A stretch of 64,000 nt of DNA from Prostheceraeus crozeri (lineage: Eukaryota > Platyhelminthes > Polycladida > Euryleptidae), in the NCBI GenBank assembly GCA_907163375.1, contig CAJQUW010009225.1:186001-250000 (forward strand), given 5' to 3'. This document shows, piece after piece, positions 39,022 through 56,968 of the stretch; the stretch's first letter is position 1, and each line of letters starts with the position of its first letter. Position numbers and translations under genes: made by a program. The notes beneath the pieces are model-generated. The model was given only the letters and a program-made list of their open reading frames with translations, was not told where the DNA came from and did no database searches.

Positions 39022-39304
39022 GAGAAAAAATTTTCGCTGACGTCCCCCCCCTCTGGACAGCTCGCTTCGATTTTGGCTTCCAGTGGACGGATTTTGTCGT
39101 GCCATAGCTCGTTTGAAAGCTAAGAGTGAGAAAAATTCATTGAAAGAATCTGCTTGTCCCTATCTGTCTTCGTTTAGATGTGAGACGCCATTTAAGATTT
39201 TGGGACATTGGCGAAAACGACAGAGTTAGAATTTGGGACGTTTTGGGCTGTAGCTTCAAAACGAAGCATCGGATTGGAAAACGGATTTCAGATTTGGAAT
39301 CAGC
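39015..39304 (+). repeat. Direct duplication of part of the left inverted repeat
   Basis: This 290-bp segment repeats 38524-38814 nearly exactly, about 490 bp downstream. The right end lacks the extra copy, so the element's ends are asymmetric. Confidence 0.88.
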
Positions 39305-39324
39305 TTGATGTTATTGTCCAATGA

Positions 39325-39465
39325 GGATCATCATCCAATGAGAATCAAGCATTTCTATATAAATAGCGAGCCTTCCACAGTGAGAATCATTCCATCGTTG
39401 AATCATACGAGTGACGGACGCACATTTTCTCTCTCTCTCTCTCTCTATTCTATTATCCAACTAAA
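39325..39465 (+). promoter_or_regulatory. Promoter and leader of the left operon-like cluster
   Basis: CCAATGAG occurs twice (about 39318 and 39335), then TATATAAATA at 39356-39365. A 24-bp motif starts at 39400 with GAATCATACGAGTGACG. It is followed by a CT run and the ATG at 39466. The same TATA-to-motif distance (35 bp) and the same motif occur on the minus strand before the polymerase gene (53737-53802). Transcription should start about 30 bp after TATA. Confidence 0.8.
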
Positions 39466-40238
39466 ATGGTAAGTCGCTACTTTCCTCCCTCTCCTCCCTT
39501 GAACGTAAACTTAATACAATCTTTTTCCATTTTCAGGCATCTACTCCATCTGCTGCACTAGTAGGACAAAATGGCGGTCAAACGTTACAAGGTTCGCTAC
39601 GGTCAGATCATCTACAACTGAGGCCAGTGGAAGAAACAACCAAGGTACATAACCCTCCACCGCTACAGCGTAAATTTAAACAAGTCTTACGTTATGACGA
39701 TCATAGCGTAGTACTCCAAACGGGAATGCTCCCTTCCACGGATGTCAAGATAATGCGCAATCAGTATGGGGACTACATACTGATCCCCGTGAGTCCATAC
39801 ATTCGCTGCCAACTTGATATCATTGAGGAGTACGTCACATTAAATATGGACATTCCTACTCCTCTTGCTCAAGAGTGGAAGGCGAGAGATGCCAAGGATA
39901 CTCCCTATAGAACGATTTGGGGTGGTAATCACATTTGCCTACCGGTATCACATTGGTGTAGTTATTATAAAAAGGATGGAGATCAATCAATACCCATCAG
40001 ATGTGATGAGCTCGGAGAAGGTACTTGGGATATCCTTTTCAAAGTGAATGGGCTATATTATGGTCGACACAAGGATAATAAAATAGCCTCTCTCTCCATG
40101 CATATGGAATCCATCCTATATATTCCAAAACCACCCAACGTGGACGACATAATTGATCAAATCCTTAACAGCAGTGGTACGAAGCGCAAGTCGGAGAAGA
40201 ATGCTGCATCAAAACGCAAATCAAAGGAGAATTACTAG
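39466..40238 (+). CDS. Unrecognised early protein with ATG-only first exon
   Basis: The gene reads as join(39466-39468, 39537-40238). ATG is immediately followed by GTAAGT; the 68-bp intron ends in a pyrimidine tract and CAG at 39534-39536, and the second exon is open in frame from its first base (GCA TCT ACT) to TAG. The product of about 234 residues has strand-rich text (GDYILIPVSPYIRCQLDII, ICLPVSHWC) and a basic tail (KRKSEKNAASKRKSK) that looks like a nuclear localisation signal. I recognise no family. Without the splice there is no ATG before about residue 40, which supports the intron. Confidence 0.65.
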
Positions 40239-40419
40239 TCCTTTCCTAACTCTACCCTATGACAATTCGCTTATGTGCTTTGAGTGTCGTAGACGTGGTC
40301 TTATTAGAATCGTTGCCATCATATCATTTGTGTATTTTGTCGTGAAAAGCATCGATGTAATTCTTCATTTTGTAATATGTTATAGAACGCTTCCTTAGAT
40401 GTGTAAATTTCCGTTTTAG

Positions 40420-40917
40420 GCTTCTATCATCATTTTTATGGATTGTGAGGGTGAACCTGTACAGGAGCTCAGTGCTATTGCTATGAACAATTGGACATAT
40501 CAGATTGTTAGTGTTTATCATCAACATGCCAACTGCGATCCCAATGTTGATCAATGGGCGAGAAAACACATTCATGGACTTAATCTGAAATATTTGCAAG
40601 ACTATGGCTTTTCTTGTGAGAGAGCTCTTCTTATTGACTTTAAACGATGGTTAGCTGCTTTCAATGTTATACGCATCTTTTGTAATAATCCTGGTAAGGA
40701 GAGGAAAGTATTTCCCAATCTAATCATTGATGATATTTTGCTCCCGCCTTGGGATAGTAGAGTGAATCAACACTACCATGAAGTCACGAAACGTTTTAAG
40801 GATTTGTGTGTTCCTATTTTGTCTATTCGTTGTAGTAGCTACGTTCATAACCAATGCTTCTTTCCTCCTTACCTCAACACTGCCAAAGTCCTGTATGGTT
40901 ATCATTGCTCGCTGTAA
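40420..40917 (+). CDS. DEDD-type 3'-5' exonuclease-like protein
   Basis: The ORF can start at ATG 40438, but an in-frame extension begins right after a 3' splice site (CCGTTTTAG, AG at 40418-40419) with Ala-Ser-Ile-Ile-Ile-Phe. This supplies the hydrophobic strand expected before the catalytic D-x-E. Motif I is MDCEGEPVQELSAI; later blocks are a Lys/Asp region (LLIDFKRWLAAF), FCNNPGKE, LPPWDSR, H-x-V-x-K-x-F-K and a final His. This order suits RNase H-fold exonucleases carried by Polinton-like elements. No GT donor with its own ATG lies directly upstream, so the leader ATG at 39466-39468 is the likely start. An alternative is simple use of ATG 40438 with a shortened strand. Confidence 0.5.
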   Translation, partial: ASIIIFMDCEGEPVQELSAIAMNNWTYQIVSVYHQHANCDPNVDQWARKHIHGLNLKYLQDYGFSCERALLIDFKRWLAAFNVIRIFCNNPGKERKVFPNLIIDDILLPPWDSRVNQHYHEVTKRFKDLCVPILSIRCSSYVHNQCFFPPYLNTAKVLYGYHCSL

Positions 40918-41055
40918 GATAGTTACCAGCTGTATCTATTTTATCTCTTTCAAACCATTGATTTATAATGCATGCTTGTTACAGTTATTCAATAAATGTT
41001 ACTATGAAAAGAGTTGTTGTTTTCATGCAATGGATGGGTTAGATAAAGGGCGATC

Positions 41056-41466
41056 ATGTCTTTCTCAAACGACTGCGGAACATTACATTTTCATAGGCAA
41101 AGTTTAAAAGGAGCTGTTCAAGATTATGTGATAAATTTTCATAAAGATGAGACCGACATCGAAGCAGTGGTCGATGATGCTAGCACTCTATTTCTAGAGT
41201 TAATGAATACATTCTCTGATAGCATTGTCATGGCGCGATTAGTTGCGAAAATTAAGTTTAGTCATTTTGGAAAGGAAGAGGTGGAAAGTCGCTCTTTCCA
41301 TTTTGCTTCTTATTCAATGGAAGTGGTAGATCACCCCAAAGAATTTTTCAAAAGACATATGATAAAAATTGCTGAACGTCTTAACGCATTTAACCATCAT
41401 GGTAGCAGTCTAGTGATTGAAGCGATTTCAGATATTCACATTCAACTTTCCATAAACAAAAATTGA
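41056..41466 (+). CDS. Unrecognised 136-residue protein
   Basis: From ATG 41056 the product has a run of alternating strands and helices (GAVQDYVINF, LFLELMNTF, MARLVAKIKF, VVDHPKEFFKRHMIKIAERL). It resembles the N-terminal helper region that precedes some Polinton polymerases, such as the strand-helix text in the element 2 polymerase at residues 120-220, but I see no clear motif. It lies between the exonuclease-like and RING genes. Confidence 0.5.
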   Translation: MSFSNDCGTLHFHRQSLKGAVQDYVINFHKDETDIEAVVDDASTLFLELMNTFSDSIVMARLVAKIKFSHFGKEEVESRSFHFASYSMEVVDHPKEFFKRHMIKIAERLNAFNHHGSSLVIEAISDIHIQLSINKN

Positions 41467-41468
41467 AA

Positions 41469-41792
41469 ATGCAGTGGTACTTGATTGTAGCACAACTGGT
41501 TTTCGAGCTATGTCTGCTCACTCTCGAAGTATATTCCTTCTGTACATGTGTCTATTATTTAGAAAAGGCTAGCAAATTCATATCTTCAAAAAGACTTGCT
41601 ATAGACATCACTAACGGTGAAACTATGTGTTGCGATGTATGTAAGCGAAAGGATGGAAATGAAAAGCGCATCTTCAAGAGATGTAAGCATGCTTTTTGTC
41701 AACGCTGTTTCATACGTAATTGCATTCAACTTTGCCAATGTAACCACTGTGATATTGCTCATTTCGAGTGTCACTTATGTCGCAATAGTTAG
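41469..41792 (+). CDS. Membrane-anchored RING-finger protein
   Basis: ATG 41469 gives 107 residues. The first 30 form a hydrophobic anchor (YLIVAQLVFELCLLTLEVY). The C-terminal half has CDVC, then CKHAFCQRC and CNHC, a C3HC4 RING pattern with the His in the fourth position. RING proteins usually act as E3 ubiquitin ligases; a viral one in a membrane could target host proteins. It begins two bases after the stop of the preceding gene. Confidence 0.65.
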   Translation: MQWYLIVAQLVFELCLLTLEVYSFCTCVYYLEKASKFISSKRLAIDITNGETMCCDVCKRKDGNEKRIFKRCKHAFCQRCFIRNCIQLCQCNHCDIAHFECHLCRNS

Positions 41793-41843
41793 TACCTATG
41801 CAAATGTGGTAAAGATAGGTTTTAGCAAAGACTAACACGGAAA

Positions 41844-42200
41844 ATGGCGAAACGTAAAATGACGAAATGTAAAAGTCAAAAGTTTTCTTCTGCCATTCAA
41901 GCTCTCCGACGAATGAAAGCATATCAGCGATACAATGCTATACGACATGCTAACGATAAATTCATTTGTGAAATTATTTCTCATGTGAGGAAGTTGAGGA
42001 CGAAGAAATTAGCGCCAAAACAACGAAAGTTACTTAAGCGATATGCTACAAAATTGCGTTTCATCTCCAATCCTAAAGTCGCCCTTCAAAGAAAGAGGAA
42101 AACTCTAACACAAAAGGGCGGTTTCCTTTCAGCAATACTTCCAATGATAGCTCCTGCCGTGGGCAACCTATTGGGTAATATCTTTGGCTCTAAGCGTTAA
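41844..42200 (+). CDS. Basic minor protein with hydrophobic C-terminus
   Basis: A 118-residue, Lys/Arg-rich protein. The middle has KKLAPKQRKLLKRYATKLRFI and the end QKGGFLSAILPMIAPAVGNLLGNIFGSK. This pattern, basic helices then 'K-x-x-L-x-Q-x-GGF-L-x-x-L-x-P', recurs in Polintons immediately before the packaging ATPase. A DNA-binding or membrane-active virion role is inferred. Its 3' end runs to within 32 bp of the ATPase start. Confidence 0.6.
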   Translation: MAKRKMTKCKSQKFSSAIQALRRMKAYQRYNAIRHANDKFICEIISHVRKLRTKKLAPKQRKLLKRYATKLRFISNPKVALQRKRKTLTQKGGFLSAILPMIAPAVGNLLGNIFGSKR

Positions 42201-42231
42201 TTATGCAAATGTTGAATCTCAAAGTATTAAA

Positions 42232-42849
42232 ATGGATTTCAGACTTCAATGTGATAAAGTTCTGACTGTATCAGGTCCATCTCATGCAGGTAAAACTGTT
42301 TTCACGCTGAATTTATTGGATAAAAGTAGGGAGTTGTTTAAGGAACCTATCAATCGAGTGATTTGGTGTTATGGTATTTATCAACCGTCGCTGTTTCAGG
42401 AATTGCAAAGTCGCAACTTTATTCGACATGAAGGAATTATTCCAGTGGATAAACTTCAGTCCAATGATGTTGTTGTATTGGATGATTTATTAAAAGAAAG
42501 TAAGAATTCAAAAGATGTTACAGATATGTTCACTCGCGCAGCACACCATAAAAGGTGCTTTATCATCTATATCACACAAAATTTGTTTCCTGATGGAAAA
42601 GAAGCTCGTACACGAAACCTGAATACACACTATTATGCTATTTTCAAGAATCCGCGAGATAAAAGTCAATTTGAAATTTTAGCGCGACAAGTTGCACCCA
42701 GAGGATCAAAAGCCTTAATTGAAATTTTTCAAGCAGCTACTGAAAAACCATACGGTTACTTATTCATTGACTTTACGCAAGAGTGTCCGGAAGAATTTAG
42801 ATTTCGAAGTGATATTTTGAAAACTCCCATGATTATCTACAAACTATGA
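42232..42849 (+). CDS. A32/FtsK-like DNA packaging ATPase (element 2)
   Basis: I start at ATG 42232; the frame is open further upstream but without ATG. The 205-residue product has Walker A SGPSHAGKT (residues about 15-23), Walker B DVVVLDDL (about 79-86), a sensor-like IIYITQN, and an arginine-rich motif (ARTRNLNTHYY). The ATPase pumps the genome into the capsid. The stop overlaps the next ATG (ATGA). Confidence 0.93.
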   Translation: MDFRLQCDKVLTVSGPSHAGKTVFTLNLLDKSRELFKEPINRVIWCYGIYQPSLFQELQSRNFIRHEGIIPVDKLQSNDVVVLDDLLKESKNSKDVTDMFTRAAHHKRCFIIYITQNLFPDGKEARTRNLNTHYYAIFKNPRDKSQFEILARQVAPRGSKALIEIFQAATEKPYGYLFIDFTQECPEEFRFRSDILKTPMIIYKL

Positions 42850-43538
42850 GTTCTTATTCTCGCATGATTGTTATTCCTCAGGATGAATATGTACAATTGA
42901 CTGCCATGCAGCAAGTAAAGCAACCTCTTGCAAATCAAATGTATAGGAAAGAAATAGATTATCAGCAAAATATTCACATCAAAGATCCACATCGTGCTGT
43001 ATTATTACAATCGGAAACTGTTGAGCAATTGAAAAACTTGAAGAATAAGATGCGTGACTCTGTATCGACTGCTACACCTTTAGCATCTCGCGCACATGCC
43101 ATATCTCTTTTCAACAGTATTGAGCCCCATCTCAATGTAAATGATAGAGGAGAAATCATTACAGATGAAAATAAAGTGATTGATGCTTCACGTTATGAAG
43201 ACTTGATTCAGTATGCGACACGTAGAAAGCGCCGTCAGGGCTATGTTCCACCTGGTTGGTCATACTTTCTTAAACTATTGAAAAAGCATAATGTGCCAAA
43301 ATTTGCTTTGAATAATGAGACATTGAAAGAACTTGATTCAACAGTGGCTACTACTCCAATGCTTCAGGGGATGAAAATGCCAACAAACTGGTTTAAGACG
43401 TCACCTGCTACATCCCCTCCCACACTCACTAAGCAAACAAGAGGAAGAACTCGACGTAGATCTACATCGCCACTAAAACTGGTAAAAGGAAAACGTAAAA
43501 CAGCTCCTCCCAGAAAATACATGTTCTCAGACTATTAA
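42846..43538 (+). CDS. Conserved Polinton late protein of unknown function
   Basis: The 230-residue protein starts inside the ATPase stop codon. It has an N-terminal helical part with LLQSETVEQLKNLKN, then a central block (YEDLIQYATRRKRRQGYVPPGW, LLKKHNVPKFALNN) that recurs between the ATPase and integrase genes of Polintons. The Ser/Thr/Arg tail (RGRTRRRSTSPLK) is basic. A core or scaffold role is possible; I cannot assign it. Confidence 0.65.
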   Translation: MSSYSRMIVIPQDEYVQLTAMQQVKQPLANQMYRKEIDYQQNIHIKDPHRAVLLQSETVEQLKNLKNKMRDSVSTATPLASRAHAISLFNSIEPHLNVNDRGEIITDENKVIDASRYEDLIQYATRRKRRQGYVPPGWSYFLKLLKKHNVPKFALNNETLKELDSTVATTPMLQGMKMPTNWFKTSPATSPPTLTKQTRGRTRRRSTSPLKLVKGKRKTAPPRKYMFSDY

Positions 43539-43539
43539 T

Positions 43540-43755
43540 ATGAAGCAGATGTGTTGCTTGCCATGTAATGAGCCGCCAGAGGTGAATGTCGTTGTCACTT
43601 GCACTTGCTGCGCCAGCTCTCATAATTAAACCCCTAAGCAATGTGAACACGATCGCAAAACCGCTAAAGCTAAATGCTGCAGTTGTTGTAAATGTAGAAA
43701 GGCAAGAAAACAAAAAGATGAGAAGGAGGAAAAAGAGTCAGTCGTCATCGACTGA
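43540..43755 (+). pseudogene. Small Cys-rich protein with an in-frame TAA
   Basis: From ATG 43540 the frame codes for CCLPCNEPPE and TCTCC, then stops at TAA 43627-43629. The same frame goes on with KCCSCCKCRKARKQK to TGA 43753-43755. The clustered cysteines on both sides of the TAA suggest one original gene of about 70 residues. It starts two bases after the previous stop and overlaps the integrase start. Confidence 0.55.
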
Positions 43756-44806
43756 ACGTTTGAAGTCAATCTATTATGATGTAAAACATCCGGCAGGATT
43801 TGCATCTATCAAGAAATTATGAAAAGCGAGTGGCCTTCCACAATCACAAGTGAAACGATGGTTAAAGGGTCAGGCTACCTATACACTCCACAAACAAGCG
43901 AAAAAGAAGTACCGCACTCGCCATTATATTGTTCATGACATCGATGAACAGTGGCAAGCAGATTTGTGCGATGTCGCCTCCATTTCAAAACATAACTCGG
44001 GTAATAATTTTATTTTAACCGTCATTGATATTTTCTCGCGTTATGCGTGGGCTCAACCTTTAAAAACTAAAGAAGGGAAAGGAGTAGCAAAAGCATTCCA
44101 AACAATTTTTCGAGAAGGTCGGATTCCAAAAAGAATTCAGAGTGATCAAGGAAAAGAGTTTGAAAATCAGCATGTGAGAAGATTATTTGAGAGGCATGAC
44201 ATTGAGTTGTTTAGTGTAAAGAGTGCTTATAAAGCTGCACTCGTTGAACGTTTTAATCGCACATTAAAAAATCGCTTGTGGCGACATTTTACTGCCAACT
44301 TGACACAAAATTGGACAAAGGTTCTACAAGATACACTCCATGCCTACAATCACTCTATCCATCGTTCTATTGGAGTCAGACCAGTAGATGTAAATGCTGA
44401 CAATGTAGATAAAGTGCGCGAATCATTCCAACGTAAACGCACTCATGTGAAAAGTGATGTGAAAATTGGTGATAAAGTTCGTATCTCAAAAGTGAAAAGT
44501 GTTTTTGCTAAAGGGTACCTTCCGAATTGGACAGAGGAGGTATTTACAGTATCAAGGATTAATCAAAAAGACTCTCCAACCACCTACAAGTTGAAAGATT
44601 ACTATAATGAAGAAATTGAGGGTAGCTTTTACCGCGATGAGATTGAGGTAGTCACTGAAAGTGAAACATATTTGGTAGAGAAAATCATTCGATGTAAAAA
44701 ACGGCAAGGTGAAGAATGGTGTCTTGTTAAATGGAGTGGTTATCCTTCAAGTATGAACTCTTGGATGCGTCGTGCCGACATCTTTCATCTAAGTGATCGA
44801 CAGTGA
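43718..44806 (+). pseudogene. rve integrase with chromodomain, interrupted by TGA (element 2)
   Basis: From ATG 43718 a Polinton integrase N-terminus (YYDVKHPAGFASIKKL) runs into TGA 43820-43822. The same frame goes on at once with the expected text (QVKRWLKGQATYTLHK). The core has D in WQADLCDV, D in QSDQGKEF and E in LVERFNRT, then the KIGDKVRI tail and a C-terminal chromodomain (TYLVEKIIRCKK ... WCLVKWSGYPSSMNSW). No ATG follows the TGA before the catalytic core, so only readthrough, or a non-AUG start near 43850, would express it. The break is a single nonsense codon. The chromodomain would steer insertion to modified histones. Confidence 0.9.
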
Positions 44807-44847
44807 TTCATGCAAAGTTGTAACTAACAATATTTAGGGTTTGAGCT

Positions 44848-45303
44848 ATGAATCCAACTGCCTCATTTTATTCACGACCCTCCTATGTAAGTGGTGGAGG
44901 ACAAATTTACATCGGCGCTCGCCGCCAACGTGGAGGTAGCATACTTGGTGCACTGAAATCTGTTGTAGCACCTCTCATATCCAATGTCGGTAGATCTTTA
45001 AAACGAAATGTTTTAAGTAATGCCGTTGGTTTTGCTGGTGATGTTGCTAGTGATCTTTCCAGAGGTAGAATTTTTAAGAGCAGTTTGTTGAATCGTGGGA
45101 AGGAACGCGGTTTAAAAACATTGAAGCAGACCTTTGCTGGTGTTACTCAAGGAAAGAAATCACCTAAACGAATGAATAAAGGAAGGAGGAAACATCGCCG
45201 AGCTGGTAAGGTGCGATCTTCAGTCAAAAGGCATTCACGCAAACGTCGCAGAGGCTCTAATCATTCATCAGGCGCTAAACGACGACGCTGCTATAACTTC
45301 TAA
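44848..45303 (+). CDS. Basic core protein, adenovirus pVI/pX-like
   Basis: The 151-residue protein begins with GGGQIYIGARRQRGGSILGALKS, a Gly-rich stretch of adenovirus pX/pVI type. An amphipathic region (VVAPLISNVGRSLKRNVL) and a strongly Arg/Lys-rich tail (KRRRGSNHSSGAKRRR) follow. Polintons carry such a protein just before the capsid gene; it probably condenses DNA or disrupts membranes. The stop is one codon before the capsid ATG. Confidence 0.65.
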   Translation: MNPTASFYSRPSYVSGGGQIYIGARRQRGGSILGALKSVVAPLISNVGRSLKRNVLSNAVGFAGDVASDLSRGRIFKSSLLNRGKERGLKTLKQTFAGVTQGKKSPKRMNKGRRKHRRAGKVRSSVKRHSRKRRRGSNHSSGAKRRRCYNF

Positions 45304-45305
45304 TC

Positions 45306-46581
45306 ATGGAGTGTAAAACTTCCGGGTTTTGTTTGTTTGATCAACAAGCCATACAGACAGATATTCTTAGTTCAAGTATTGTAGATTATCATCCTCGAAC
45401 AGCTGAGAATGCTGGCCCCATTGAATTTGTTATTCCTGGTGGTAGTGATGACTACATAGATTTGAGTTATGCGATGCTTGATTTGAGGTTTAGAATTCAG
45501 CAAGCAGATGGAACTGCTATTGACGATGCACATAAAGTTGGACTGAACAATTTACCATTGACTACATTACTTCGCGATGTTTCTCTAACGATTGGAGAGC
45601 AGCAGGTGGAAGGTGGTCAAAGCGATTATCCCTATAAATCATATTTCAATCATGTATTACAGTTTCATCCAGCAGCACAAAAAAGTCATGGAAGCCATGG
45701 GATGGTACAGAGATGAAGCAGGAAAATTTGATGTTGAAACAAACAGTGGCTTTGTAAAGCGATCTGCTATGATTAAAGATAGTAAAGTATGTCAGCTATA
45801 TGGTCCGCTGAATTTAGACTTCTTTAGACAGTCAAAGTTTTTACTCTGTAATACCAGCATGCGACTCAAGCTGACATTGAATAAGCCTGAATTTGCGCTG
45901 AATGCATTTGCTAAAGTTGACAATTTTAGAATTCATGTGGAAGATATTGCACTTTACATTCGTCGAGTAGTACCGAATCCAAGTGTCATTAGAGGGCATG
46001 CTGAAGGCCTTAGCCGCCAAAATGCCATTTACCCCGTTCAGCATACAAAGCTTCTCACCTTTACAATTCCGAAAGATCAAAAGAGTTTCATGAAAGATGG
46101 CCTCTTTCCATCGGAAGCACCGAAGCTCCTCATGGTGGCAATGGTTGAAAATGATGCATTTAATGGTAATATAAAGAAGAATCCTTTCAATTTTAAACAC
46201 AATCAGTTAAGTGAAATTGCTTTACGTGTAAATGGTGTGAGTCATCCTGGTCCACCCTACAAACCAGATTTTGCTTCGGATCAATTTATGCGCAGTTATG
46301 TTGATTTTATGGATGTCTTTGGCTTTTACAATACGGATGACACCAACGGACTTACTATGAAAGAGTTTAAGAGTGGATATACTATTTATGCATTTGATTT
46401 GACTGCTGACAGCGATATTAGTGCACCCTATCGTCAAGCGAACGTGCCTCATAATATTCGTTTGGATTTGACGTTCAAAAGAACACTACCTGAGACGATC
46501 AATGTATTAATTTATGCAGTCTTCGATTCAAATATTGAAATTACAAAGTATCGTGACGTGATTCTTCAGTATAATCGTTAA
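45306..46581 (+). pseudogene. Major capsid protein, double jelly-roll, frameshifted (element 2)
   Basis: ATG 45306 opens with FCLFDQQAIQTDILSS and VDYHPRTAENAGPIEFVIPG, the standard Polinton (F54H12.2-type) capsid start, followed by DDYIDLSYAMLDLRFRI. This frame ends at 45716. The remaining jelly-roll text (MGWYRDEAGKFD onward to the end block YTIYAFDLTADSDI) is in the +1 frame. The change lies at a run of six A (about 45678-45683). A real indel and an assembly homopolymer error look the same here. Apart from it, the capsid reads complete at about 424 residues. The gene stop overlaps the protease ATG. Confidence 0.88.
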
Positions 46582-47042
46582 TGAGTTGGTTGACTGCTGA
46601 CGATATTAAGACTAAAGTGCAGCGTAATGCAGACGAAGCGACGTTGAAAGCTTTCGATAATGTCTATTCACTCGATACCTTACCACCTGCAGTAAATCAC
46701 TATCCCATCTTTATTGTACTAAACACTCATTCGCAGAATTTAGGCGGTGAGCATTGGAAAGCGATCTTTATTGGAGAAGACCGACGTGGTGAACTATTTG
46801 ACTCTCTTGCTCAACCTCCAAATACACCAACACAGCAGTGGTTGAGAAAACATACGCGTCAATATCAGCAAAATGAACGCATACTACAACATCCACTTTC
46901 ATCAACGTGTGGTGCTTTTGTACTGTACTTCATCTTAAAACGTTTACATGTATCTCGATTTGCATCTATTATTCAAAACTTTTCATGTAATCCATCCTCT
47001 AATGAAAAAATGATTTGTAAGTTCTATCATGATTTGAAATAA
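46581..47042 (+). CDS. Adenain-type cysteine protease (element 2)
   Basis: The 153-residue ORF starts within the capsid stop codon (TAATG). His is in GGEHWKAIF, Asp in ELFDSLAQPP and Cys in STCGAFVLYFI, with Gln in the preceding segment (ERILQHPLSS). The triad order fits adenain. It is uninterrupted. An AATAAA signal overlaps its end (47038-47044), near the minus-strand TBP gene that converges on it. Confidence 0.9.
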   Translation: MSWLTADDIKTKVQRNADEATLKAFDNVYSLDTLPPAVNHYPIFIVLNTHSQNLGGEHWKAIFIGEDRRGELFDSLAQPPNTPTQQWLRKHTRQYQQNERILQHPLSSTCGAFVLYFILKRLHVSRFASIIQNFSCNPSSNEKMICKFYHDLK

Positions 47043-47068
47043 AAACATCATGTTGGAAAAATTGTTTT

Positions 47069-47615
47069 TTATTTTACAATCCGCTGGGTACGTACATACT
47101 CAATGAGATAGTCTAGGATCACATTTGCTTGTACATGAGATTTTAGTCCAGTAATGATCACTTTACTATTATGAAAGATTGCCACATGCACAGGTAACCA
47201 ACAACTAATGAGAGCTGCAGGAAAAAGTTCGGGTTCATAACACAAATTATAACTGCTGGTACGAATCTTCAAAAAATGATAGACTGTCACTCAATTGAGT
47301 AGAGATCACCATATTGTCCACAGTCAGATTCGACATCACACACCTCTCCCTCTTCCATATCCGACGTAGTAGTCTTTGTAGCTCTAAGCGCATTGACTGC
47401 GCCGATGAATGAGAAAGGGCGCCGAGAATCTGTACAGTCCCATTTGGGAAGAGTTGAAGATTCCGTGAATTGTTCATCTTCACCACTAACATTTGAGGTC
47501 GGCCCGGGTAATACTTGCTGTTTGGAAGGTGTTGGTGTAATGTTGTGAGATCGATTTTGGTGTCGAGTCTGAAGCGACGGAGAATGTTGACGATGGTGTA
47601 GCGATGGCGCTTCAT
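47069..47615 (-). CDS. TATA-binding-protein-like protein, two repeats, one frameshift
   Basis: From ATG 47615 the first TBP repeat is visible: YTIVNILRRFRLDTKIDL, then the Asn-x-x-Y-x-P-x-R block NSKYYPGRP, then NLQLFPNGTVQILGA and a long helix with Arg/Leu. The second repeat starts with NLTVDNMVISTQLSD. At a run of six T (about 47268-47273) the text moves to another frame, which continues with CYEPELFPAALI and VAIFHNSKVIITGLKSH, the YEPELFPG-type centre and 'sGKvvlTGaK' strand of TBP repeat 2. TBP folds as a saddle on TATA DNA. The break may be decay or a homopolymer error. The gene overlaps the PC4-like ORF upstream in a different frame and lies convergent with the protease. Confidence 0.78.
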
Positions 47616-47937
47616 GATGAAAGAATGAGTAAATTGAGCGATGTACCTTCCTTTTATACTTTTCCCAACTACCTTGATGAAATGTGAAGTTAGTATGAAG
47701 TTGGGAATGATAGAGTTGAATTCGCCGATTGTTGACGTGCAGCCAGATGCGATTTCCAATACGTGAATGTCTTTTCATATAGAAGTATTTCAAATCCTTC
47801 ATGATATGATGTAGAGATTGAAAATGACGATAAGATAAAGCAAACTCTCTTCTCACATTTCCAGTTGAATCTTTGAAATAGACGTTTCGATCATGATCCG
47901 TTTCAATACGTTGTAGGGAATCTAATTTCCAACTCAT
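47287..47937 (-). CDS. PC4-like paralogue 2, overlapping the TBP-like gene
   Basis: The 216-residue ORF starts SWKLDSLQRIETD and has NVYFKDSTGNVRREFALSYRHF and WEKYKRKVHRSI. It is clearly homologous to the neighbouring ORF at 47960-48316. The block 'strand-DG-strand, then IS/ALT-x-x-x-F-x-x-L-x-x-I-x-x-DL' resembles the PC4/p15 ssDNA-binding coactivator domain. The paralogue stops after about 120 residues, but this ORF continues for about 100 more across the TBP-like gene in another frame. That extension is Ser/Thr/Asp-rich and may be real overprinting or chance. The function is inferred from fold-like text only. Confidence 0.5.
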   Translation of the reverse strand: MSWKLDSLQRIETDHDRNVYFKDSTGNVRREFALSYRHFQSLHHIMKDLKYFYMKRHSRIGNRIWLHVNNRRIQLYHSQLHTNFTFHQGSWEKYKRKVHRSIYSFFHHEAPSLHHRQHSPSLQTRHQNRSHNITPTPSKQQVLPGPTSNVSGEDEQFTESSTLPKWDCTDSRRPFSFIGAVNALRATKTTTSDMEEGEVCDVESDCGQYGDLYSIE

Positions 47938-47959
47938 GGTGCGTGGTAATCATGTCTGA

Positions 47960-48316
47960 TTAAGATTTGCATAGTAGGGCGATGAACTCACGACGAATAA
48001 ATGTCATGATGGAGCGATGTATGTATCTTCTATACTTCTCCCAATTGTATTTGCGAAATGAGAAACAGTTTGCGGAATGAGAATGGTAGATTTGAATTTC
48101 ATTTCTGTAATGTTGAAGCCAAACTTGATCACCCAAGGAGATGAATCTTAATGTTTCAAAATATTCCAAATCCCTCATGATATCATTGAGGTTGACAAAT
48201 TGTCGCCATGTTAATGTAATACCTCTTGATGTATGACCATGAGAATTTTTGAAGTGTATGTTTCCATCACGATCAACTCTGATATATTGTAGAGAGTCCA
48301 AAATCCAAGTCTTCAT
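47960..48316 (-). CDS. PC4-like paralogue 1
   Basis: From ATG 48316 (an in-frame ATG also lies at 48328) the product begins KTWILDSLQYIRVDRDGNIHF, then GITLTWRQFVNLNDIMRDLEYF and WEKYRRYIHRSIMTF. The alignment with the downstream ORF covers almost the whole length, so this is a tandem gene duplication. The ITLT-x-x-x-F-x-x-L helix suggests PC4-type ssDNA binding. Only 35 bp separate its start from the divergent penton gene. Confidence 0.55.
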   Translation of the reverse strand: MKTWILDSLQYIRVDRDGNIHFKNSHGHTSRGITLTWRQFVNLNDIMRDLEYFETLRFISLGDQVWLQHYRNEIQIYHSHSANCFSFRKYNWEKYRRYIHRSIMTFIRREFIALLCKS

Positions 48317-48351
48317 GATGTTATGCAAAGTCGCAGATCAGCAATATAAAA

Positions 48352-49750
48352 ATGTCGTTTTATCATATTTTGCTTAGCAATGCGGCCGCAAATAGATTTG
48401 CTAGTAATCGAGCCGCACTCTTTTCTACTCCCATTGATCATACACAACAGCTAAATGGGAATTGGGAAGTGGGTGTCACTCAACTTGTTTATAGCAACTG
48501 TGTCTATACTTTTGATCATGAGGTGATGACTATTAATATGAGACGTACAGCTGCTTACCAATGTGAAAAGGGCTGCCGAGTATACATTCCACAGTGGCCA
48601 AAGAAAGATCTCTTATTATGTAAAAAGTTTATATATGATTTCCTGAATAAAGCGTGTAAACATATTGTCCAATTTACTCCGCACAATGATGATTATACTT
48701 ATATACATCATGTAGTTGAGAAAGATTGGATTGTTGGTTTAAGTCCAAGTTTAAGAAATGATTTAGGCTACCTCGCTAGCGCCTTGACAAGCTATGATAA
48801 TTTTAACGTTAATTACCACATAAGTGGTCATAAACAGTTAATATATCGAGAGGAAGCTTATTATGTAGATCTTATTCCAAAAAATGAGAAGACGTTGGTG
48901 AAGAAGATTGTGATTAAGCCAAGAAAGACAAACATGACTCCTGAAACATTATTGAAGAAATTTAATTATCTCCTTCGAGTTGATGGTAAACAAGTGGCAA
49001 CATTGACTTATATCAAATCATCTAATCATATTGCAATAAGTAAATTAAATGATGATGATCTAGTATTAGTTTGTTCAAAAGATTTTCATCAGTTCTTGCG
49101 ACATCATTCTGCAGCTGTTCATGGAAAATTTAATATGCAACATTTACCATGTGAAAGGTCAAATCAATTTGATACAGAATGGACCGTATCTTTATACAGA
49201 AAGTGTGTAGAGCCTTTAGGTGGTATCTTACATGAAACAAGAGTGTTGATGCCTCGCATCATTACTTCAGTTAAATTGGTTGTAGATTATTTAAATGAAG
49301 TGATTAATGAGCAACATATTTCATTTTCTGAAAAAGAAGGTACTTTGTCTCTCACTATAAGTGGAAAAGGTATTGAACTAATTATGGATAAAACTCTAAT
49401 GGACATTTTGGGTTTTGACCAAAATATCTTTAAAAGTGGTACTGTAACCAAAGCTAGCGCAGACATGTCGCTATCGCGTCGTATTAACTATTTTCAGATA
49501 TATTCCAATATTGGTGAAGATGTACGTGTGGGAGATGTTGAAGCTCCATTGCTAGCAATGATACCATACCAGCCAAAAAGCTGCAGTATTTTATCTGAGC
49601 ATACTTTCAAGAAAGTGCATTATACAAAGCTGAAATCAAAACTACATCCCACAAATTGATATTGCCATTTATGACGATGCTGGTGCGTTGATTCCTTTTC
49701 ATAAAGATGCTGTGACAAGTATCACACTCCATTTCCGAATGAAGAGCTAA
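48352..49750 (+). CDS. Penton-like minor capsid protein 1, frameshift near the end
   Basis: The product starts FYHILLSNAAANRFASN and has LNGNWEVGVTQLVYSNCVYTF, the Polinton minor capsid (penton) signature: 'Y-x-x-L-x-SN-x-S', then 'G-x-WEVAL'. The internal strand/helix text contains LLKKFNYLLR and LIMDKTLMDILGF. The frame of ATG 48352 ends at 49659, but the expected final strands (DIAIYDDAGALIPF, ITLHFR) are in the +1 frame up to TAA 49748-49750. The switch is near an AAAA run at about 49637. Penton proteins close the capsid vertices. Confidence 0.82.
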
Positions 49751-49789
49751 TGCAAAAGTATGCTAATATATTTTTCCAATGTGAATAAT

Positions 49790-51310
49790 ATGGAAAGTGA
49801 AAATAAGGACTCGTTTCTAATCTACTTACCCAGTAATGCTTCTATGAATAAATTTCCCAAAAATAAACCATCAGACTATCGAGTAGAATTAAATCGCCCA
49901 CTGCATTTAGAAGGTGAATGGGAGGTTGGCGTTTCTAGTATTTGCTATGATAGCAATATTCAGAATGTGAATGATTTGGAAGAAATGATATTGACTCCTC
50001 GCACCCATGATGGAATAACGATGAATAATGCATTTCAGTTCCCATACAATTTAACATCAGATGGAAAGTGGAACTATGAATGGATTCAGATAAAATCAGA
50101 TTCTTATGAACCATTTGGGAATGAGAAAATTATTAAGGCATTCAACAGTGGTAATACTTCCATCATGAAGAATAAAAATCAGAAAGCTTATGAGTTTACT
50201 ATCTATCATTGGAGTGGGAGACAGTTCCTCCGCTTTCATTCTTTTACTAAAGGTCTTACGCTGAGGTTGGATAGTGAATTCTATCCACATCTTGGTTTTG
50301 GTCATGGACTACATCTAACGTCAATTGCTACTGCAAATGTTAAAAAAGTTTATTCAAATCGAATCAACAAATTTCATTATAGATTTAAAATATTTGATGA
50401 AGATGTTGTAGAATGCGAAGAACGCATCATTTTGAAAAAGCGTGGTGTTCAACCTTTATCACTTATTGAGTTAGTAAAACGATGGAATGAGACTGTGGGT
50501 AAGAAGTATGGAGAAAAAATTATGGCGGACAAAAATAAGTTGGTTATTCAGAAATATAATGACAAACTTACAGTTTATTTCTCTCCAACCTTGCGTCATT
50601 TTGTAAGACATTATACACCTATTATTTGAAGCGGTGTGGTGTATGGTTCTCATGAATATCACACTAAAGCTGATTCAGTTAATGATGAATGGTGGGTGGA
50701 CATCTATGGCGATCGCATCAAGAAAATTTACCAGTCTTATGAAGAATCTAAAGTTGCTATCAATATAATGCCGCGTCTATATCATACAGTTGAAAGCCTC
50801 ATTCATGTAGTAAATTCTTATATACAACAGAAGTTGAAGCATGTGATGAAAAGTAAATATGATGTAAAGACACACCACATTTCGTTTTCAATTGATAATC
50901 AACGCATTGTTCTGAAACTGGGTGATGACATTCAATGTCAATTGAGTAAAAATTTGAAAAAACTCTTTGGTTTTTCAATGCTACAAACAGTGTTTGCTGC
51001 TGCGCATACGATTGGTATAGAAACACCAATGACACTTGATAAACATGAACAGCACCTTTACATTCAAAGTGATTTGATTCTACCTATTTCTGTTGGTGAG
51101 AAAAAAGAATACATTTTACGCGATTTCATTCATGATAAAGACGCTTCATATGGAATAGTCGAGAAGATGTTTGAATCTATTTTCTATCATCCCGTCATCA
51201 AACAAACTATACCCTCTATTGCTATCAAAATTACCAATGGTTTACAAGAGTGCATCCATGTGAAAGATACTAAATCACTCGTAACTTTAGTGTTTCGGAA
51301 AACAAAGTGA
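49790..51310 (+). pseudogene. Penton-like minor capsid protein 2, in-frame TGA
   Basis: A second gene of the same family as its upstream neighbour. It begins at ATG 49790 with DSFLIYLPSNASMNKFPKN, followed by LEGEWEVGVSSICYDS. TGA 50627-50629 breaks the frame after the TPII residues; the same frame then stays open with SGVVYGSHEY through to 51310. The C-terminal half has the usual helix (LIHVVNSYIQQKL) and closing strands. Read through, it would be about 505 residues. With the stop it is two pieces; no ATG stands directly after the TGA. Confidence 0.82.
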
Positions 51311-51821
51311 AGTCTTTATACAACATTTATTGAAATATGTACATGAATGTGAAGCAATGGACTTTATACAACATCCACTGAAAATATATACATGAGTGTA
51401 CTTCAATAAACATTGCTATATACAAAAAGTCTTTTTACTTCGTGAAGGGTGGAAATATACAGGGATAGGAAAAATGTCTTTCAGTGGAAAAGTCATAACA
51501 TGGGGAATGTACAGATGTGGACACATATTCACAAGGAAAAAACAATCTCATGCGATACATAAAACAACAATGTTTATCTACAGAAATCAACATCAAAATA
51601 CTAAGTTAAGGATGATTATGCTAAGACGTCTCCTGAATGTGGTAGTGTGGGTTTAATTCTTTTGGGTGGTGGTATGCCTGTATCAGGATGTCCATGTGGA
51701 AGAGATATGTTGTGTTATAACCAGCACCTCTTATCCTCCCATGCTGAAAGCGCCCGTTTCCTAAAAGTATGAGTTTTGATCTCATGCGACTTAGATTTTA
51801 AGATTGTCATATTGACAAACG
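51311..51821. other. Spacer where the polymerase core should be
   Basis: About 510 bp separate the second penton gene from the stop of the truncated polymerase gene. The minus strand has stops in all frames and no exonuclease II or polymerase motifs. A plus-strand phrase CGHIFTRK (about 51515) resembles the first finger of the polymerase (CGHIFTRKWDLTRH) and may be a small rearranged piece. Direct phrases TTTATACAACATHYA recur at 51315 and 51362. Confidence 0.6.
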
Positions 51822-53690
51822 TTATATTTTTATGACGGGTAATGTACGCCGTTTCATCCTAAGTGAAAAATTGCATTTTGAACATAGTGCGTTTCTAAAT
51901 TTACCAGTGATGTGATCATGGTCGCGCACTTTCTTAATCTTATCATCATCAAATGTTTTCCTACATTTGGGGCAAACGTTGCAACTATCAAATTTTGCTT
52001 GATCATCTGCTGTCATATGCAATGATCTGCGATAGAGTTCACCATCATACTTTTGTTGAAATTTTACAGCCTGTTCGAGGAATTGTAGGAATTGGTAAAT
52101 ACAATCCTCACCTTGCCAGACGTGCATTTTATTTTTTCTATTTTGGAAATGGTCATGCCATACTTCATAGCAGGAAATGGCTGCTGGCTTGTGGATGATA
52201 TCATCGATATAGCATTCGATGTCAGCATAGATGACACGAAGAGGACTTAGTTCATCGCCATTCTCTCTATATGAAAACTCCTTATCTTTGGGCATGCGCT
52301 CCATTTGTAGTTTACCTCGCTTACACCATTCGTAATGAGTTTCAAATTTAGTTTTCCTCCTAAAGTGGCGAATACATCTGTCGCAGTAATATAACTCTCT
52401 ACTAGAGTTTTCTAAGTGGTGGTATAAGCGAGAGATTTTGGGAATACCGCAGTAGTGCCATTCCTCACTATCATCCTGTTTTACTAATAACAGGTTTACT
52501 GTACGTTCATAACAACTCGAACGCGAGTTGTAGCGCACACCCTTCAATCCTTTTTCCCAAACATGGAGAACTATTTTAATGTTGTTCAATTTTTCAAATT
52601 TTTCTATATCTTTAATTTTCATATCGTCACTATTACAGTCATCGAAGTTTAATTCATTCTCCCACTGCCTATAGCTATATGTGCGATTTCGATTCGCATT
52701 GATATCATTATAGTGGAGAATGGAGAGGACAGCATATTTAAAACATTGCGATTCGCAATCGACATTAATGACTGCTGTTTTGTTTTTTAAAATTTTTGGA
52801 AGTTTAAAGGAGCCTCGACCACTATGATTTCCTAATAAACTGATTTTAAATAAGGCGGACTCAATGCCGTCAAAAATGAGACCGCTATCGCGCTCGTTAA
52901 ATTTATCTATATTTAATTTTAATCCTTGGATGTGAAAATTTATCCAAGACTCATAGTCTACAACCTCGGTTGCAGGAGAGGAGGGTATGTGAAACTCCAA
53001 CCTCTCTACTATTTGACCAGTATGGTGGTCGATTTTTACATATTTTATTTTAAGATAGATGAGCGCCTTCATCCTAAGATTGTCTAAATTGTTGAAGAGC
53101 GCTTCTATCAATGATGAATTTTGATGAAACCATTCCTCAAAGTTAGCAATGGTTTCTGAGGAGTCCATCTGGTAGTTCCTCACTAAATTATTTATGGACA
53201 CTTCAGTGAGTCGGATAGAGGAGGTACCGTTGGTGTAGGTATCGTTCGTGTGTGTATGTTGAAGTCTGTGCGAAGATAGTTCAAAACGTGTCTCGAAAGA
53301 CTGAGCGCACAAGTCGCAAGAAAAGGAGACGACGTTAACAGAATCATCCCCACCTCCGGAGATTGATGCCGGCTTAGGTCGACAAACACCTCGCTTGATG
53401 TGTCGGGTGAGATCCCATTTCCTCGTGAAGATGTGCCCACAGTCAGCACATTCCCACTCGTTGCCATGTCGCGACAGTTCTGAGCTGGAACTCACATCAC
53501 CTGAAAGAGAAATCATTCTATCATCTCTGTTCAAGCCTCAGTGTATTGTTACAACCTACCTTGACTCAATAACTCTAAACTTTCCTCGAGAAGGGAGGGC
53601 GTTGGTGATGAAGTTGATGCCTGAAATTGAGGAAGATGCTATTAGTCACACGTTTGAGGGAGATGAGAGAGGAAATCTTTAACTTACCAT
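51822..53690 (-). pseudogene. polB: Protein-primed polymerase gene truncated before its core, spliced start (element 2)
   Basis: The gene reads as complement join(53688-53690, 53560-53620, 51822-53500). ATG is followed at once by GTAAGT; introns of 67 and 59 bp end in CAG, and all junctions keep the frame. Three C2H2-like fingers are visible (WECADCGHIF, FSCDLCAQSF, YYCDRCIRHF), then the N-domain block (INVDCESQCF) and the ExoI motif YADIECYI, then a Cys/His cluster (CPKCRKTF, VRDHDHITG). The frame ends after TLPVIKI, where ExoII should come. ExoII, ExoIII and polymerase motifs A-C are absent anywhere in element 2. The product of about 580 residues cannot polymerise. Confidence 0.85.
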
Positions 53691-53840
53691 TTTAATGAAA
53701 TATGATCAGACAGAATAATAGTCAAAGAGAGAGATCGTGCGTTCGTCACTTGTATGATTCACAGATTAAATGAAATGACATGAATGTCAGTTTGCTTATA
53801 TACTTTCATTCTCTTCATTCATTGGATGTTCATTCTGATT
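53691..53840 (-). promoter_or_regulatory. Polymerase promoter and leader, copy of the left promoter
   Basis: On the minus strand: CCAATGAATG (about 53823), TATATAAG at 53802-53795, then the 24-bp motif from 53760 to 53737 starting GAATCATACAAGTGACG, a CT-rich stretch, and ATG 53690 followed by GTAAGT. Only two of the 24 motif bases differ from the left copy (39400-39423), and the TATA-to-motif distance is identical. Confidence 0.8.
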
Positions 53841-53915
53841 GGCTGCTTGTGTATACTTAAGAATTAGAAAAATGTTAAAGTTATCATTATTCAAAGTCAG
53901 CATTTCAAAGACAAC

Positions 53916-54356
53916 ATGACAAGTCCTCCAACAACACCAAATACCGCATTGGAGTTCTCCTCTCCATGCACATCAGCAAAGGTGCTCGTTACACCAAATG
54001 CACCAAGAAAGGCGAAGGTGGAGAAGACGACATACAATCTCGACAATATACGAAAGTTATCATTATCGGAGGACGATGAAGAGGAGTTGCCCGACCTAAC
54101 AGGCATACGGTGGAAATATTTACAATATGATGCCGAAGGGGTGATGGAGATGACCAGCAAGTCGCACTTGCATCAAATATGGGAGTGGTACACCCCTAAC
54201 TCCCAACCGCGAACCGTGGCGGAGTGGGCGTACATTGACAAAGTGAGGGACGCTGCAGAAGAACGTTTAAAGCAGCTCAACTGTTTTTGTGATCTATGTG
54301 AAGTCAGACTCTGGGACGATATTGACGATGAAGACCTTTTGAAATACATGCCATAA
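53916..54356 (+). CDS. Unrecognised acidic protein
   Basis: A 146-residue ORF from ATG 53916, divergent from the polymerase. The first 45 residues are Ser/Thr/Pro-rich (TSPPTTPNTALEF). The rest is acidic and helical (LSLSEDDEEELPDL, IWEWY, AEERLKQLNCFCDLCEVRLWDD) with a Cys-x-Cys-x2-Cys cluster. It ends near AATAAA (54356-54361). I recognise no family; an early regulatory protein is a guess from its position. Confidence 0.55.
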   Translation: MTSPPTTPNTALEFSSPCTSAKVLVTPNAPRKAKVEKTTYNLDNIRKLSLSEDDEEELPDLTGIRWKYLQYDAEGVMEMTSKSHLHQIWEWYTPNSQPRTVAEWAYIDKVRDAAEERLKQLNCFCDLCEVRLWDDIDDEDLLKYMP

Positions 54357-54947
54357 TAAATGTTTATTTCGTATTATCTTTGCTTTCATACTGACTTACT
54401 TGAATGGGGCTTTAGTGAATAATTTAACCATGTATACTTTTTCATTAGGAAATAGTAGCACGCTTAGTTTAACTTGAAAATCTTATAACATTTCATATGG
54501 GTGATGATGATAATAGATGAAATAGTGTCAAATAAATTAAGATAGCTTACATGATTCTGGGATAGCAATCGACTGCGATCCATGTGTAAAGAGCTTGTTA
54601 GACTACGGAAGAGAGAAGTGTGTTATGTTGCGTGTGGCGCGTGAGTGTCCTCCCTTTCATTCCATTCATCAATTCATCTCATTGATAGAGACAGGTAGAA
54701 CTCATGGCTCTCATAACGTATGCAATGGAAAGTTTTAGGCAACCTTCGACAGTTGGCTAAATGTCGCCCTGGCGCGAATGCATACTACGTTGAGACAGAG
54801 GCAATCACTTGCAAACATGACGCAGAGAGGTTTAACAAGATTGACCATTGCCGAATGTCCCTTGCGGTATACATAGCTACGGGTTTCACCGCCGCCCTTT
54901 ACAGGAACGCCCGTCGAAAGGAAGTATTACACCGAACTTCATTTGCA

Positions 54948-55091
54948 ACGTTCAAGTTGACTGATAGCAGATTCAACTTAATGATAGTATTCGCCAGTCC
55001 GAAGACTGCCCAGGGCAAACCGCGTGGAGGTTCTATCATGTCTTGCCCCATGGTGGCCCTTAAGAGAGCCGGTGGTTCGTTCTCGGGGTGC
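54948..55091. repeat. 143-bp direct repeat, copy 1
   Basis: ACGTTCAAGTTGACTGATAG to TTCTCGGGGTG is repeated at 55471-55613 with about four changes. One plus-strand frame is open in both copies (TFKLTDSRFNLMIVFASPK), within a weak 127-codon ORF at 54720-55103. A GGGATAGCAATCGACTGC phrase also recurs (54562 and 55450). The small minus-strand gene lies between the copies. Confidence 0.85.
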
Positions 55092-55103
55092 GAATTAAGT
55101 TGA

Positions 55104-55358
55104 CTATTGGCTGGAGTAGTCAAGGGGTATGACGGTTAGGTTCTCATAGACCCTATACCGCCTAAGCCGTGCTGGTGCATCTGGCACCTTTCGGATGCGA
55201 GTGGTATTCGGAGTCCACACCTCATCCGTCCAAATGATGTTCCTAATCTTCCCCTTCTTCTCATCCTCTTCATCCCACTCGTCGAGGATGACGAACTCGG
55301 GAATGGCGTTGTCTTCATCGATGAAGACGGGAATGCTGTTGGCAGATGTGGCTTCCAT
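55104..55358 (-). CDS. Small acidic protein with its own TATA box
   Basis: From ATG 55358 the product of 84 residues has an acidic first half (FIDEDNAIPEFVILDEWDEEDE), then WTDEVWTPNTT and a basic end (RLRRYRVYENL). TATATAAG is at 55406-55399 on the minus strand, 41 bp before the ATG, so the leader is very short. It lies between two direct repeat copies. No family recognised. Confidence 0.5.
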   Translation of the reverse strand: MEATSANSIPVFIDEDNAIPEFVILDEWDEEDEKKGKIRNIIWTDEVWTPNTTRIRKVPDAPARLRRYRVYENLTVIPLDYSSQ

Positions 55359-55470
55359 CGTGACTTGAAATTGAATGAGAAGCGCTACAATCTTCTGGCT
55401 TATATAGGGTTTTCAACAATGAATTGCTCAACAGCGAATCAGAATGCTTCAGGGATAGCAATCGACTGCA

Positions 55471-55613
55471 TAACGTTCAAGTTGACTGATAGCAGATTCA
55501 ACTTAATGATAGTATTCGCCAGTCCGAAGACTGCCCAGGGCAAACCGCGAGGAGGTTCTATCAGATCTTGCCCCATGGTGGCCCTTAAGAGAGCCGGTGG
55601 TTCGTTCTCGGGA
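55471..55613. repeat. 143-bp direct repeat, copy 2
   Basis: It is nearly identical to 54948-55091. It ends 21 bp before the stop codon of the next minus-strand gene. Confidence 0.85.
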
Positions 55614-55633
55614 TGATTGAAAAAATATGGGAC

Positions 55634-56968
55634 TCAAGCTTGCCGCTTCGCCTCCGGCTCGTTGACGGAAGCAGGTGGGCGCTTCTCTTTGATATCTGTA
55701 AAGAAAGAAGTTGTTAGTTATCATCTTGAACTCTAAGTTACTTGTTTTAACTTACAGATCTTCTCCGGACGTGGTTCGAACAGGAATCCTGTGATTGCCT
55801 CCTTATGCTCGAATGTAAAATGAAGGCATTCGATACCTTTTTTAGCCCTGCTGTAACACATTTCGTCTCTGCCACGTTCACAGAGGAGCGGTCTTGCGGG
55901 CACACGTCCTTTCTTATCTAGAGGAATGTGGAGGCGACTTGATCGTCGAGTACTGCCACTCATCACTTGTTGGTGCAGCTCCTGATTAGTCGCCACCACC
56001 TTCCCCAACTGCTTTCGCAGCCCTTCCACCTCCTCCCTCATCTTTCTCAACTCCTTCTCTTGACTCTCTCTCTCGATCAGGAGCTGTTCTTCTCTAGCCT
56101 TACTAGCGAGGTGCGAGAACCTCTCGCGATCGAGCTCTCCTTCTTTCTCAAAAAGACTAGCTTGAGTCTTCTTGAGCTCCTGAGTGACTAGCGAGAGGTT
56201 CTCGGAACTCGCTTTATAGAAGAAACAGTCCCTCTTCCACACCTCCAACTCATTCTTCAACTTGTCATAGTTATCGACCAGTGGTGGGCGCATAATGAAG
56301 TTGCGACATTGAGCCGCAATCCCACCACTGCTCGATAACTTAGCCGGCTGCACCTCGCTATCGAGGTCAACTTCCCTCACCGCCTCTACCTCGCTATCGA
56401 GGTAGACACTCTCGACTAGGTCAGCCTTCGTCGAGCCTTTTTCCTCCTCCTCCTCTTCCTCACTGTCGCTGCTACTAGTAGCCGACTCATCGCTAGAGGA
56501 GGAGGAGGATTTACTCGACTTCGGAGAAGACTCAATCGGGGTGGGTGAGAGAGCCTTTGCTGGCACACTAGATGAGGGAGCCTCTGCTGACGCGATAGAC
56601 TCGACAGCACACTGAGTCTCCAGAATCGGGGTGGGTGAGAGAGCCTTTGCTGGTGCACTAGATGAGGGAGGCTTTGCTGACGCGATAGCCTCGACAGCGC
56701 ACTGAGTCTCCAGAGCTTTTAACTCTGAGCTGAAGAGACTTTGCTTCGCCTCCTCAGTCAGCTCTGGTTGACTGCAACTGCTATGCTTCGCATGCCACTC
56801 CGGTAACGTCTCGACAAGGCGAGATGCATTATGGCTGCTGCAAAAGTATCGAATGCCCCCTACCATTCGCTTATTTACACAAGAGTGTTTCTTGAAGGCA
56901 TCACTGCGAAAAATCTTTGTACAAACGCAGAGCTTGAAAGCCGTCTTGGCATTATTGTAGTTAACCAT
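55634..56968 (-). CDS. Cys-finger, Ser-rich and coiled-coil protein with a 60-bp intron
   Basis: From ATG 56968 the N-terminus has a Cys/His pattern (LCVCTKIFRSDAFKKHSC, then a WHAKHSSC segment). Two copies of a 25-residue unit follow (ETQCAVE, APAKALSPTPI), then a phosphosite-like Ser/Asp/Glu run (SSSSSSDESATSSSDSEEEE) and a coiled coil (about residues 255-365). On the minus strand GTAAGT begins at 55755 and TTTCTTTACAG ends at 55696; the splice adds 20 codons that are basic and Pro-rich and end at TGA 55636-55634. An AG acceptor also lies four bases upstream of the ATG. It could be a nuclear regulatory or scaffold protein. Confidence 0.6.

Follow-up and report, generated by a model that had tools for sequence, protein, structure and literature searches.

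Can an integrating DNA element of an animal carry a TATA-binding protein (TBP) of its own? The question is raised by a Polinton in a 64,000-nucleotide stretch of the genome of the flatworm Prostheceraeus crozeri (GenBank assembly GCA_907163375.1, contig CAJQUW010009225.1, positions 186,001 to 250,000; hereafter the window), where the minus strand at 47069-47615 codes for both TBP repeats, but in two different frames. The first piece of the gene (47247..47615, minus strand) begins with the ATG at 47615 and covers all of repeat 1 and the beginning of repeat 2; motifs quoted by an earlier sequence-only reading of this DNA are present there as TIVNIL...KIDLTTL, KYYPGRP, and DNMV, in the frame ending at 47247. 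The second piece (47069..47290, minus strand), in the other frame, supplies the remainder of repeat 2, including the YEPELFP stirrup, and this motif and SKVIITGLK, likewise quoted, are found in it. When the two pieces were searched separately against the Pfam TBP family (PF00352, cut-off 22.9 bits), with the frame change left unmended, each half passed alone: piece 1 (47250-47615) with 46.6 bits (3.2e-12) and piece 2 (47072-47290) with 23.7 bits (4.3e-5). Their open reading frames (ORFs) overlap at 47247-47290, and the window copy is broken by a frame change within repeat 2. Relatives that keep a single frame scored higher, at 66.7 bits (L018) and 83.1 bits (L010) in two stretches each, and the predicted structure of a relative is a TBP saddle, with about 20% identity to cellular TBP in structural alignments. 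Because one-frame relatives exist both elsewhere and in this genome, where 13 of the 22 copies examined have a single frame, the two-repeat signal is not due to chance. These 13 copies encode 173-188 amino acids with almost no N-terminal region.

The element that holds the gene is a Polinton, as judged from its ends, target duplication, and gene set. It spans 20,782 bp (38038..58819), has inverted repeats of about 1 kb that start AGTAGTAA, and is flanked by the 6-bp target duplication TCTATG at 38032-38037 and 58820-58825; other copies are flanked by AGTAGA (the copy at C4631) and ATCATA (a lineage C copy at C6670). An integrase with a chromodomain is encoded at 43850..44806 on the plus strand (Pfam rve 44.4 bits, Chromo 29.9 bits). 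The assignment of the TBP to a Polinton-type element in the earlier reading was thereby upheld, and we regard both the identity of the gene and its residence in a Polinton as near certain.

The gene is not confined to the window. The 2.05-Gb assembly contains at least 150 scored TBP matches among 10,982 first-look candidates, and when the window TBP gene was used in a DNA search, 40 of the 86 candidates were scored, with identities of 96-100%. We examined 22 copies, namely the window, 20 places taken as 8-10-kb pieces, and L008; most came from the highest ranks of a list ordered by score, which over-represents the better-kept copies. Eleven belong to the window type, lineage A (window, L013, L014, L015, L016, L017, L020, L021, L022, L024, and L026), to which L023 is a single diverged relative; three form lineage B (L009, L010, and L012) and seven lineage C (L008, L011, L018, L019, L025, L027, and L028). 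The estimated synonymous divergence between the three lineages is 1.2 to 2.6. In lineages A and B the TBP gene is flanked by the protease gene on one side and the 48352-type gene on the other; its place beside the protease gene agrees with the earlier reading. In lineage C it lies near PolB. Ratios of nonsynonymous to synonymous substitution rates (dN/dS) between seven window-type copies and L023 were 0.27-0.31 in all seven comparisons. Four rows of the matches fall on contigs C9306 and C3829. The host TBP is a separate gene on C9306 (L001, L003). The gene on C3829 (L002, C3829:150235-153438) is a second host TBP-like gene with a Trp, seen by eye, at the N-lobe phenylalanine position; on this residue, which a passage of PMC7221094 describes for TBPL1, we take it to be TBPL1/TRF2, which would fit an animal host, probably a bilaterian.

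Relatives were also found outside the flatworm. A first protein search with the window TBP returned five proteins, among the relatives being P0001, to which piece 1 is 82% identical over 93% of the query. A profile built from 10 sequences then recovered 232 related environmental proteins at E<=0.01 among 1512 candidates; among the matches listed, PF00352 was present in 120 of 120, and their contigs reach about 20 kb in length. These 232 relatives are presumably Polinton genes as well. The longest contig is 1771 bases for both P0001 and the PC4-like protein P0122, a hint of shared context. A quick tree was built from 125 rows (115 relatives, six genome copies, and four cellular TBPs), and the program warns of long branches in it. 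The cellular TBPs stand apart on a very long branch with support 100; P0001 and P0002 fall with lineage A and P0006 with lineage C, whereas lineage B is apart from both. Three further record sets, in which records near the window's genome may be absent, were scanned: two scans of IMG/VR contigs and a search of prokaryote genome contigs returned no TBP relatives, and phage records gave one haloarchaeal virus TBP at 26% identity.

The residues kept among the relatives bear on what the protein might do. Alignment A3 comprises 48 of the 120 listed relatives; the window piece was excluded from A2 and A3, and its wrong-frame tail is contained in A1. The DNA-contact phenylalanine at L5.1 of both lobes (F77 and F168; position numbering as in PMC7221094) is present in 48/48 relatives, and the TFIIB-contact glutamates are kept in 48/48 and 47/48. 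The first phenylalanine of repeat 1 is Pro in all 48, and the other three of the four kinking phenylalanines are kept. The basic N-lobe patch, which binds TFIIA, Mot1, TAF1, and Brf, is not kept in the 48 relatives: where the host and Encephalitozoon TBPs have basic helix residues, the relatives vary or show the reverse charge, with Glu in column 99 in 41 of 48. Among the 23 ORFs of the window element, no match to a TFIIB-like gene was found.

A candidate promoter precedes the gene at a fixed place. The box TATAAAAG (47651..47658, minus strand) lies 43 nucleotides before the TBP ATG, where an upstream PC4-like gene is still coding. TATAAA precedes the TBP ATG in 22/22 copies. Its distance from the ATG is 43 nucleotides in lineage A, L023, and lineage C, and 46-47 nucleotides in lineage B, and the box reads TATAAAAG in 20 of the 22 copies; it is thus kept in three lineages despite their synonymous divergence. 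In the PC4-like frame the box consists of Tyr-Lys-Arg codons, and under the codon use of the element the probability of TAT-AAA-AGG is 0.70 x 0.72 x 0.12 = 0.06. The paralogous PC4-like gene has Tyr-Arg-Arg codons at that place and no TATA box. A transcript starting about 30 nucleotides past the box would begin about 13 nucleotides before the TBP ATG. The earlier statement that early genes have clear TATA boxes was not supported: in the window element, TATAWA was found within 120 nucleotides before 2 of 18 gene starts, these being the TBP start and another start whose box is only 7 nucleotides from the ATG, and the box of TBP itself is the only constant one. Counts of TATA boxes at gene starts showed no clear enrichment, with 2/22 observed against 1.08 expected in the window, 2/12 against 0.44 in L023, 2/20 against 1.78 in lineage B, and 2/10 against 0.28 in lineage C, and general TATA promoters in the element were not supported. 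In the window, L023, and lineage C, the two TATA-bearing starts include that of TBP.

The PC4-like gene that contains this box also runs on into TBP. PC4-like gene a (47287..47937, minus strand; 216 amino acids) overlaps the TBP gene in another frame with its C-terminal 108 codons, so that at 47287-47615 the first part of TBP and the PC4-like tail share the same DNA. An overlap of about 300 nucleotides was seen in all three lineages; the PC4-like frame stays open for at least 100 codons beyond the TBP ATG in 19/22 copies (lineage A 11/11, L023, lineage B 1/3, and lineage C 6/7), and four of these 19 frames (L021, L025, L027, and L028) extend past the usual stop. In 3000 synonymous-codon shuffles of the TBP gene per copy, the PC4-like frame was equally open in 1, 0, 12, 1, 0, and 0 shuffles for L022, L013, L023, L010, L019, and L018, respectively. 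Tail peptides of different lineages were more alike than shuffles in 5/5 pairs (z 3.7 to 5.9; 0/1000 shuffles reached the observed value). For these five pairs the third frame, which is rich in stops, gave z values of 1.2 to 3.2, and shared ancestry therefore accounts for part of the tail resemblance. PC4-like proteins of lineages B and C aligned over nearly their whole length (E 1e-24), and those of A and C matched at E 2e-12; part of this similarity stems from the stretch shared with TBP, but the part outside the overlap also gave tblastn matches across lineages (B; C at E 6e-5). At the level of sequence, the two genes thus appear to form an overlapping pair, the second frame being open and conserved beyond the constraint of TBP itself. 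Neither this overlapping frame nor the lineage without detected capsid and integrase that is described below was part of the earlier reading.

The name PC4-like needs qualification. Gene b (47960..48316, minus strand; 118 amino acids from its ATG) is a paralogue of gene a. The AlphaFold2 model of a relative, P0121 (99% identical to gene b), has the order of four strands and a helix, twice, a predicted topology that by our reading fits a PC4/Whirly/PUR-type fold. By sequence, no PC4 domain was matched in Pfam up to E 5 or E 1, or in the PDB up to E 10. The PC4-like pair proposed earlier is thus a weaker call than the TBP, the predicted fold order being what fits it.

How might these features work together? 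We consider a self-regulating promoter factor that places host TFIIB and RNA polymerase II to be the best explanation, and on balance a probable one. The Polinton TBP would bind TATA-type DNA via three of the four kinking phenylalanines; its conserved stirrup glutamates would place host TFIIB and hence host RNA polymerase II; and, with the basic N-lobe patch lost, it would largely escape the host regulators Mot1, TFIIA, and TAF1. Its gene would be read from the TATA box inside the overlapping PC4-like gene, and TBP, once made, would therefore drive its own promoter. On this view, the elements would use a self-encoded factor to steer host transcription. Tentatively, and with less confidence than in the promoter factor itself, the arrangement may be seen as a compact overprinted cassette, in which the acidic PC4-like tail is read out of frame from a self-driving, host-TFIIB-recruiting TBP, and which smaller elements lacking capsid and integrase, as Polinton satellites, would keep together with PolB while being moved by the integrase of full elements.

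Several observations weigh against a self-regulating promoter factor. TBP is broken in 9/22 copies, the window included, although the copies come from the top of the score-ranked list, and the overlap frame is fully open in only one of the three lineage B copies. Within the window type, dN/dS was noisy, at 0.29-3.78 over 21 pairs, and the pair L014/L017 was spoilt by starts set too early, in the PC4 frame; repeat 1 is moreover dual-coding, which complicates the ratios, so that they must be read with care. The Pro at the first phenylalanine of repeat 1 may alter TATA binding. Finally, there is no clear TATA enrichment before other element genes, and an element-wide role of TBP would therefore need another motif.

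That last point, together with the lost N-lobe patch and the Pro in place of one phenylalanine, would suit a protein that acts against the host by occupying TATA sites or tying up TFIIB, and so competes with or stops host transcription instead of driving the promoters of the element. We regard this as unlikely, for all three lineages retain the TATA box ahead of the TBP gene itself, and TBP still lies beside PolB in the lineage in which no capsid or integrase was detected, as an expression or replication module would. The same proximity to PolB in lineage C, and the resemblance that we read between the PC4-like model and a single-strand DNA-binding fold, would suit a TBP fold that serves DNA replication rather than transcription, acting, for instance, at the element ends or an origin with the PC4-like protein and PolB; replication alone, however, would not need the almost invariant TFIIB-contact glutamates, and this role seems more doubtful still. 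Recent capture of a host TBP is unlikely because the branch to the four cellular TBPs is very long and the gene is present in three element lineages; the captured host fragment that the earlier reading had considered was rejected on these grounds. In its strict form, a functionless host TBP fragment captured by one element, the idea can draw on the broken state of the window copy and eight others of the 22, but it is contradicted already by the host TBP being a different gene on another contig and distant in the tree, by the three element lineages and 232 environmental relatives, and by the dN/dS of about 0.3 against L023, and we hold it to be very improbable.

The Polinton TBP can be set beside known TBPs and their carriers. 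Like cellular TBP of archaea and eukaryotes, it is predicted to fold as a two-repeat saddle, and it has three kinking phenylalanines and the TFIIB stirrup YExELFP; it differs in its low identity of about 20%, the Pro at the first phenylalanine, the lost N-lobe basic patch, and the near absence of an N-terminal region. Virus-encoded TBP-like proteins are likewise found in large DNA viruses: African swine fever virus B263R has three conserved phenylalanines, as has the Polinton TBP (PMC5825884), a megavirus encodes a TBP (PMC11464507), and 59% of mirusviruses have one (PMC10132985). Almost all surveyed TBP-bearing viruses also have a TFIIB-like gene, viral TBPs in print being mostly accompanied by a viral TFIIB, and no more than about 40% of the surveyed viral TBPs retain the first stirrup glutamate (PMC7221094). 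In contrast, the Polinton TBP keeps this glutamate in every one of the 48 aligned relatives, TFIIB was not found in the window element's ORFs, and the carrier is an integrating element of 16-21 kb. Algal putative mirusvirus-type elements have sporadic TATA-binding proteins, and no double jelly roll capsid gene was found in them (PMC10675990). With described animal Polintons/Mavericks and adintoviruses the present elements share the rve integrase, a PolB-type gene, inverted repeats, and a 6-bp target duplication, and differ by the TBP, its overlap with a PC4-like gene, and one lineage without detected capsid, protease, ATPase, and integrase. We found no description of a Polinton TBP in the open-access literature, closed journals and supplements lying outside the search. 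A TBP that keeps the TFIIB contact without the regulatory patch would, if true, separate two functions in nature, and Polinton expression from host chromatin becomes testable with one small protein. The DNA shared by TBP and the PC4-like gene would stand as a clear example of overprinting in an animal integrating element.

The lineage C elements differ most in gene content. The element at C6670:507453-523774 (L029:8954 to L030:5475) is 16,322 bp long, with inverted repeats of 948 nucleotides and the duplication ATCATA. It contains PC4-like, TBP, and PolB genes together with small genes also present at the left end of lineage A. With tblastn, no integrase or capsid match was found up to E 1, protease and ATPase gave only matches of E 0.14 or worse, and no further long ORF was listed inside. 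The same gene pattern was seen in a second copy (C1819), for which the piece examined ends within the left repeat. The lineage C ends have AGTAGTAA in common with the window element, and a 140-nucleotide stretch is 86% identical. From the two copies examined, lineage C resembles a satellite that would depend for its movement on another element's integrase, possibly that of one of the TBP-bearing elements themselves, although a very diverged integrase would be missed.

The remaining genes of the window Polinton were assigned with varying support. A partial PolB-type protein bearing an Endonuclease_7 domain is encoded at 51822..53534 on the minus strand (Pfam Endonuclease_7 28.3 bits); PolB is a fragment in the window, and longer stretches occur in other copies. 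A probable adenain/Ulp1-type cysteine protease (46581..47042, plus strand) matched Peptidase_C48 (18.2 bits) and Peptidase_C5 (13 bits), both below the cut-off, and a probable packaging-type (A32-type) ATPase (42184..42849, plus strand) gave Pox_A32 and AAA matches below the cut-off. The gene at 45306..46581 (plus strand), in two frames here (ORFs 45306-45716 and 45592-46581), presumably encodes a capsid-type protein, a name taken from its position and from the usual gene sets of Polintons; a Pfam match was looked for in both ORFs, and none was found. A small basic protein at 41844-42200 weakly matched adenovirus core protein X (18.1 bits, cut-off 25). A family of small proteins with no Pfam match over the cut-off (window 41056-41466, L018:90-489, L030:2113-2499, and L031:1354-1752) is present in lineages A, B, and C and repeated within lineage C elements. 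The window also contains a second Polinton-type element at 221-11882, in which a TBP match was found in 0/5 scanned ORFs; it is AT-rich and encodes PolB, an rve integrase to which a phospholipase A2-like domain is fused (10079-11389), and, at 7942-9216, a capsid protein of DJR-like type.
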